A stretch of 36,918 bases of DNA from Bryobacteraceae bacterium. GTDB taxonomy: Bacteria > Acidobacteriota > Terriglobia > Bryobacterales > Bryobacteraceae. The position numbers and the translations under genes were made by a program. The stretch is from assembly GCA_025980435.1 (NCBI GenBank), contig JAICXK010000015.1, positions 1 to 36,918 of the forward strand, given 5' to 3'. Below are positions 26,584 through 27,523 of this stretch, one piece after another. Each line of letters begins with the position of its first letter. Positions within the stretch are counted from its first letter, which is position 1. The notes under the pieces are model-generated. The model saw only the letters and a program-made list of their open reading frames with translations. It did not search any database and was not told the DNA's origin.

Positions 26584-27180
26584 GTGACCACCGAATCGAG
26601 CTCTTCCAACGCGCTATCACCTGAAGCGATTGCCCGGTTGGTTGGCGGACACCGGGAATTCCTGACGTTCCTCGAACGACGCGTTGAATCGAGATCTGCT
26701 GCCGAAGATATCCTGCAAGCCGCGTTTGTACGCGGATTGGAGCACGGGGTGGGAGTGCCGGATGAGAAGGTGGTTGCCTGGTTTTACCGGGTTCTTCGTA
26801 ACTCCGTAATCGATCACTACCGCCACCGGTCCACTTCTGCACGATTTTTGGAAACCTGGGGCAGAGAGTTCACCGAGAGCCAAGAGCCCGATACGGCGCT
26901 GCGGCAGGAAATCTGCCAATGTGTTTCCGGCTTACTCGCGGATCTAAAGCCGGAATACCGCGATGCACTGCGGGTGGTGGATCTGGAGGACGGAACACTC
27001 AGCGACCTGGCGGATCAATCGAGAATTACTGCGGAGAATGCCGCCGTGCGCATACATCGAGCCAGGAAGGCTTTGCGCCGTAAGGTGGAGCAGGCTTGCG
27101 GTACTTGTGCGGAGCATGGGTGCTTCGATTGCCGCTGTCAGACCGCAGGCGGCTCGCATTGCGCCGCCCCTTCAGCCTGA
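26584..27180 (+). CDS. ECF-type RNA polymerase sigma factor with Cys-rich C-terminal tail
   Basis: Region 2 (AEDILQAAFVRGLEH...VVAWFYRVLRNSVIDHYRHR), region 4 (LKPEYRDALRVVDLEDGTLSDLADQSRITAENAAVRIHRARKALRRKV), tail CGTCAEHGCFDCRCQTAGGSHC; track uses TTG 26578, GTG 26584 also possible. Confidence 0.9.
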   Translation: MTTESSSSNALSPEAIARLVGGHREFLTFLERRVESRSAAEDILQAAFVRGLEHGVGVPDEKVVAWFYRVLRNSVIDHYRHRSTSARFLETWGREFTESQEPDTALRQEICQCVSGLLADLKPEYRDALRVVDLEDGTLSDLADQSRITAENAAVRIHRARKALRRKVEQACGTCAEHGCFDCRCQTAGGSHCAAPSA

Positions 27181-27192
27181 ATGCACGGGCAC

Positions 27193-27218
27193 TGTAAGAT
27201 TTCGAGTGGACGCACGTC
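27193..27218 (+). promoter_or_regulatory. Candidate ECF-type promoter TGTAAG-N16-CGTC
   Basis: TGTAAG 27193-27198 and CGTC 27215-27218 separated by 16 nt, about 50 nt upstream of the Cys-rich small ORF. Confidence 0.5.
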
Positions 27219-27268
27219 TGCCCCTTTGAAAGCGCATAGGGCGCTTAACAAAATACAGGAGAAACCAA

Positions 27269-27430
27269 ATGACAAACCGAAAGAACGTACCTGACCAGAG
27301 TGCGGCTACCACCACCTGCTGCGGCGCCTGTGACTGCGCTAGCTGTTCCTGCGGATGCCCTGAAGGCGCATGCCGATGCCAATCGACGAACTGCAAATGC
27401 GGCTGCCGCACACCTGGCAATAGCCGGTAG
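27269..27430 (+). CDS. Metallothionein-like Cys-rich small protein (53 aa, 12 Cys); absent from supplied ORF track
   Basis: ATG preceded by AGGAGA; translation MTNRKNVPDQSAATTTCCGACDCASCSCGCPEGACRCQSTNCKCGCRTPGNSR, stop TAG. Confidence 0.8.
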   Translation: MTNRKNVPDQSAATTTCCGACDCASCSCGCPEGACRCQSTNCKCGCRTPGNSR

Positions 27431-27523
27431 CCCGGATCCGGCCCCGGTCGCCAGACGGCTCGCCGGGGCCACACAGGCGAAACTAGATCGCCGACGCAAC
27501 GCGCCCGCTTAAAATGAACGTTT

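Follow-up and report, generated by a model that had tools for sequence, protein, structure and literature searches.

A predicted module of a CorE-like sigma factor and a metallothionein-like micropeptide for copper buffering in Bryobacteraceae and other Terriglobia

Genes and signals at the locus

The window, which is the entire stretch of 36,918 nucleotides of Bryobacteraceae DNA that was analyzed, contains a gene for an ECF sigma factor followed on the same strand by a small gene for a cysteine-rich peptide. The 88-base gap between both genes harbors a predicted promoter, a hairpin and a ribosome-binding-like site.

26584..27180, + strand, CorE-like ECF sigma factor of 198 aa, GTG start codon at 26584, identified by Pfam domains and homologues
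27193..27218, + strand, predicted sigma-factor promoter, TGTAAGATTT (−35), N12, CGTC (−10), conserved upstream of homologous peptide genes
27232..27248, + strand, leader hairpin AAGCGC-ATAGG-GCGCTT, identified by its fold, 3' of the predicted transcription start
27258..27263, + strand, AGGAGA, ribosome-binding-like, with a GGAG-type site at the equivalent position in most relatives
27269..27430, + strand, metallothionein-like peptide gene, 53 aa with 12 Cys, ATG at 27269 and stop codon at 27428-27430, identified by translation, homologues with invariant Cys residues and dN/dS

The cysteine-rich peptide and its selection

A first-pass annotation of this DNA had proposed the 53-residue, 12-Cys reading frame, a ribosome-binding-like AGGAGA in front of it, and two decoy open reading frames that overlap it (27300..27512, + strand, and 27245..27499, − strand). 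Translation of 27269-27430 on the + strand yielded the identical residues followed by the stop codon, AGGAGA is located immediately 5' of the ATG, and both overlapping frames were found again, each with a lower conservation than the peptide frame. Cysteine accounts for 22.6% of the 53 residues and occurs in CC and CxC motifs, while histidine and aromatic residues are absent, so that the peptide displays the hallmarks of metallothioneins: small size, richness in Cys, CC/CxC clusters and no aromatics. A signal peptide was not evident in the 53-aa sequence. Among the reading frames of the window with 20 to 80 aa, at least 9 Cys and at least 15% Cys, the peptide gene was the only one (n = 1), and 100 dinucleotide-preserving shuffles of the window gave a mean of 0.02 such frames and a largest value of 1.

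The dN/dS ratio of the frame, proposed as a check by the first-pass annotation, was between 0.11 and 0.31 among the three nearest homologues, and 0.24 and 0.11 for two near pairs that include the window. Third codon positions took 11 of the 16 and 11 of the 20 substitutions that separate the window from its two nearest homologues, and the Cys codons in near pairs showed only changes between TGC and TGT. The third-position substitutions together with the dN/dS values indicate that the peptide frame is under purifying selection. Frameshifts or stop codons with loss of the Cys pattern, which would have spoken against a gene, did not occur in the close relatives. As judged from this conservation, 27269-27430 is a real gene, and it is one that gene-finders overlook in soil Acidobacteria.

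All 12 Cys residues were kept in the homologues from other Bryobacteraceae, which included one in a genome of the same genus (L006 = L011; 83% identity), one in a second MAG (L012 = G471; 91% identity) and one in another Bryobacteraceae genus (L007/L014; 53% identity). Further members with 9 to 12 Cys came from a profile search that covered 399 genomes of the class. Outside the close relatives, a core of CxCxC...CxC...CxC was preserved and the remainder was variable, and the micropeptide family as a whole ranges from 23 to 53 aa with 6 to 12 Cys. Only 2 of the 17 sampled genomes of the host genus contained a clear copy, which indicates that the peptide is accessory. The remote locus L013:1000-1143 (= L021) carries a degraded-looking copy that has lost the CxCxC core and has neither the −10 element nor the leader upstream; it has probably decayed or diverged. 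Two variants are very short, MNCNCPCGPCPCPEPCPCDQPAD at L125:4733-4758 with 23 aa and MICNLTCGCPCEPGAPCPCPPGSPCC at L126 with 26 aa, and the sigma factors next to them have a shortened Cys-rich end. Most matches of the class search with E values between 0.001 and 0.01 (L023-L033) were discarded as chance, as were weak matches within the own genome, since neither a sigma factor nor the Cys pattern accompanied them. A plasmid search with the peptide or the surrounding DNA returned no matches.

Pfam and NCBIfam contained no family for the window peptide at E ≤ 1, and the sole relative with a family match hit Metallothio_2 below the threshold (E = 0.041). The sequence search in PDB also assigned no family and gave one chance match to a defensin only. 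The peptide did not fit the family profile of SmtA/BmtA, and it lacks His residues that could serve as metal ligands of the SmtA/BmtA type. The suggestion that this may be a new class of bacterial metallothioneins gains support from these results: the peptide is conserved and Cys-rich, no Pfam or NCBIfam model covers it, and the sequence carries signs of a metal-responsive control of its gene.

The sigma factor and its pairing with the peptide

The upstream protein scored above the curated cutoffs for Sigma70_r2 (31.8 bits) and Sigma70_r4_2 (26.7 bits) in Pfam; its GTG start at 26584 was inferred by alignment with the ATG of the L007 sigma factor. CorE-like sigma factors are characterized by a CxC motif in the linker and a C-terminal Cys-rich domain (CRD) (PMC8999054). 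The linker of the window protein contains EICQCV, a CxC kept in most relatives, and its CRD, CGTCAEHGCFDCRC, fits the C-x2-C-x4-C-x2-C-x-C spacing of copper-activated CorE (residues 181/184/189/192/194; PMC3107203, PMC9023288). The copper-dependent activation of CorE requires the CRD (PMC3107203). CorE2 from Myxococcus xanthus responds to Cd and Zn (PMC8999054) and has a CC-x3-C spacing in its CRD (PMC9023288), which is absent from the CRD of the window protein. The relation between spacing and metal is only a guide because this rule comes from very few characterized proteins. Among that part of the neighboring reading frames that was looked at, no anti-sigma gene was seen, and no copper transporter is located beside the window copy.

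No more than 1.5 kb separated the sigma gene from the peptide gene in about 20 loci, where their orientation was either tandem or divergent. Besides the Bryobacteraceae, at least two further families are represented among these loci. Both genes share one contig with a distance of about 5 kb in L012/G471, and the peptide loci L034/G354 and L102/G328 are on short contigs without a sigma gene. When 39 sigma factors were arranged in a tree, the label "peptide nearby" changed 4 times compared to a mean of 12.9 after shuffling, which is a strong clustering, some of which is expected anyway from the relatedness of the rows. One clade of 11 sigma factors had no peptide nearby; two of its loci, read over a longer stretch, showed the promoter in front of a cupredoxin gene. 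The sigma-peptide pair of G178 from another family (f7) grouped with those of the Bryobacteraceae on a short branch, and this hints at horizontal transfer. A membrane protein of about 134 to 145 aa (MEYxIGVxLA...; weak similarity to DUF6010 or YbjO) recurs beside the module (L011:4477-4878, L012 about 2132-2535, L013:543-977, L105:1848-2249 and L106:7650-8066), but no such protein is encoded next to the window copy.

Homologues of the sigma factor on plasmids comprised 31 records, all with less than 60% identity. Six of them were read: all had a Cys-rich C terminus and some were near copper genes, and no convincing adjacent peptide was present, so that these candidates were dismissed. A CRD sigma factor, CRSCATHGCLDCTC, is also encoded on the Candidatus Manganitrophus plasmid CP114563.1 (L041:2501-3300). 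Two TGTAACC...CGTC sites are located 3' of this sigma gene and precede a hypothetical gene, and the plasmid carries metal-resistance genes.

The predicted promoter and the leader hairpin

Comparison of the upstream regions defined a promoter, TGTAAGGTTT-N12-CGTC, which nearly all loci of the upstream alignment carry about 15 to 65 bases 5' of the start codon; it was absent upstream of the peptide genes at L126 and at the degraded L013. A pattern search with TGTAAGRTTT-N12-CGTC gave a single match in the own 5.1-Mb genome, before the peptide gene, with 0.01 matches expected by chance in the window. The motif was then searched class-wide in the 399 genomes with spacers of 11 to 13 bases, and all 22 places with TGTAAGGTTT and a spacer of 12 were read with one script. 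A CRD sigma factor was encoded in the fetched stretch at 16 of these 22 places, and a Cys-rich micro-ORF followed within 110 bases at 12; a hand count of both criteria gave 14 of the 22 places, the differences concerning short contigs only. The wrong spacers of 11 or 13 bases occurred at 14 places, and the 12 that were read contained neither a CRD sigma factor nor a micro-ORF; the stretches were 2.7 to 12 kb long for spacer 12 and about 5 kb for these controls, which affects the sigma count and not the count of micro-ORFs within 110 bases. Starting from the promoter alone also revealed further unannotated Cys-rich micropeptides of 24 to 53 aa in other genomes. Some had been missed by every similarity search, for example MTTYICPCGADCPCGSDCACPSSN (L112) and MLDQKLCTCGPVCPCGDNCGCPASN (L111), each adjoining a CRD sigma factor. 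A stricter motif, TGTAAKGTTT-N12-CGTCAGC, was found phylum-wide in one genome, which belongs to the same class; because the copy in the window does not conform to this motif, the absence outside of the class is only suggestive. These associations indicate that the window sigma factor may use the TGTAAGRTTT-N12-CGTC promoter. The shared promoter was also present before two unrelated, apparently exported proteins of 147 and 194 aa (L105:1198-1752 and L100:4330-4975) near CRD sigma factors, which may possibly be further stress effectors.

Between the promoter and the Shine-Dalgarno site, a hairpin was usual. Its stem sequences differed between groups (AAGCGC/GCGCTT, AACGCG/CGCGTT, TGTCCG/CGGACA, CCGGGC/GCCCGG, GTCGGAC/GTCCGGC and AAGGC/GCCTT). 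The summed folding energy of 21 leaders (the window and 20 relatives) was −171.9 kcal/mol compared to −105.0 ± 9.0 for shuffled leaders, and 0 of 1,000 shuffles reached a value as low. Protection of the mRNA would be the simplest guess for the role of this hairpin.

Interpretation of the module and weighing of alternatives

Genes sharing the promoter in relatives are informative with respect to the metal. In L113, the promoter precedes a gene for a CopA-type (copper) P-ATPase. In L107:1240-4928, it is followed by genes for a cupredoxin, a CopA-type ATPase and a CRD sigma factor without a metallothionein, and L108:2298-5980, read for these three elements, contains the promoter, the cupredoxin and the sigma factor as in L107. 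The CRD spacing, these copper genes and, weakly, the absence of His favor copper, which may be the metal signal; the peptide is predicted to bind metal and to be copper-specific.

Judged from the sequence, it is quite probable that the sigma factor is CorE-like and activated by metal, and that it is dedicated to a metallothionein-like peptide that buffers copper. Against this speak the absence of a copper transporter beside the window copy, the accessory nature of the peptide within the host genus and the few characterized proteins behind the spacing rule. The peptide would act in the cytosol as a small metallothionein, with Cu(I) as its most likely metal, and would be the dedicated target of the adjoining sigma factor. 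Rising metal may bind to the Cys-rich CRD, as in CorE, and the metal-bound sigma factor would direct RNA polymerase to the TGTAAGRTTT-N12-CGTC promoter, yielding a short mRNA that carries a hairpin near its 5' end. The 12-Cys peptide, like metallothioneins in general, could bind the metal in a thiolate cluster, thereby protecting the cell, and the falling level of free metal would switch the sigma factor off in a feedback loop.

The same module may respond to Zn or Cd in the manner of CorE2, with the peptide as a Zn/Cd metallothionein. Metallothioneins often bind several metals, and CRD sigma factors can respond to Cd and Zn, as CorE2 does (PMC8999054). This alternative is nevertheless rather unlikely: the CRD has the spacing of CorE without the CC-x3-C of CorE2 (PMC9023288), the neighbors that share the promoter encode CopA and cupredoxins, and the peptide has no His, which is common in bacterial metallothioneins of the zinc type (PMC10612145).

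CorE-like proteins lack an anti-sigma factor. The peptide could be mainly a regulator that replaces such a factor by tuning the sigma factor as a thiolate competitor or metal donor, with detoxification being secondary, and the tight genetic pairing, the occurrence of the promoter motif in the own genome only before the peptide gene, and the absence of an anti-sigma gene among the neighbors looked at would agree with this. It is improbable because CorE from M. xanthus is not described as needing a partner (PMC3107203), and the sister clade of 11 sigma factors does without a nearby peptide; in two loci of this clade, the shared promoter stands before copper genes, as would be expected if the effectors were exchangeable. 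Even less probable is that the peptide gives rise to a modified or exported product that binds copper, similar to bufferins, methanobactins or RiPPs: the short length and the great divergence of the family would suit such a product, but there is no evident signal peptide, no modification enzyme or exporter recurs among the listed neighbors, and these neighbors vary between loci. Finally, the reading frame is short and a dipeptidyl-peptidase-like gene begins 93 bases 3' of its stop codon, so that it might be spurious or encode a leader peptide for the gene that follows. The probability of this is close to negligible in view of the purifying selection, the invariant Cys residues and the linkage to promoter and sigma factor, and the leader-peptide idea was dropped because the downstream gene is not conserved.

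Returning to the sigma factor with a dedicated copper-buffering peptide, the balance of the comparisons favors a whole family behind it: unannotated copper-metallothionein micropeptides of 23 to 53 aa with 6 to 12 Cys in Terriglobia, defined by their promoter, each of which would serve one CorE-like, metal-sensing sigma factor as its dedicated effector, with a rapidly changing sequence but a fixed promoter and leader hairpin. They would be the first sigma-activated metallothioneins in bacteria, and no report of a CorE-like sigma factor linked to a metallothionein was found in the open-licence literature that was searched. Few types of bacterial metallothioneins are known, such as the SmtA-like zinc types and the mycobacterial MymT, and the module would add a family. 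Similarity searches miss these micropeptides because they are tiny and diverge fast; the 26-base promoter beside a CorE-like sigma factor provides a handle to find more of them. Through the module, a likely target also emerges for the acidobacterial CRD sigma factors, which had already been listed in 2011 without a target being named in the text consulted (PMC3107203). It suggests a so far unreported bacterial way to mop up toxic copper, by a compact sensor-promoter-chelator unit.

Comparison with known systems

CorE and CorE2 of Myxococcus xanthus are CorE-like ECF sigma factors of the groups ECF44/ECF238. The window sigma factor resembles CorE in its sigma regions 2 and 4, the CxC linker and a CRD with the CorE spacing, and in the copper genes that share its promoter in relatives. 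It differs in its predicted target: the genes known to be controlled by CorE encode a multicopper oxidase, an efflux protein and ATPases, whereas the window sigma factor adjoins a gene for a metallothionein-like micropeptide. MymT from Mycobacterium tuberculosis is likewise a small, Cys-rich, copper-linked metallothionein that was an unannotated reading frame when it was found (PMC7558416). As described, MymT is set apart by its control by the repressor RicR (PMC10141476), compared to the likely control by an activating sigma factor here. SmtA, which is repressed by SmtB, BmtA and PflQ2MT are also small bacterial Cys-rich proteins that buffer metals. These proteins possess a GATA-type zinc-finger fold and often His (PMC10612145), whereas the window peptide is free of His and aromatic residues and has no match in Pfam or NCBIfam.
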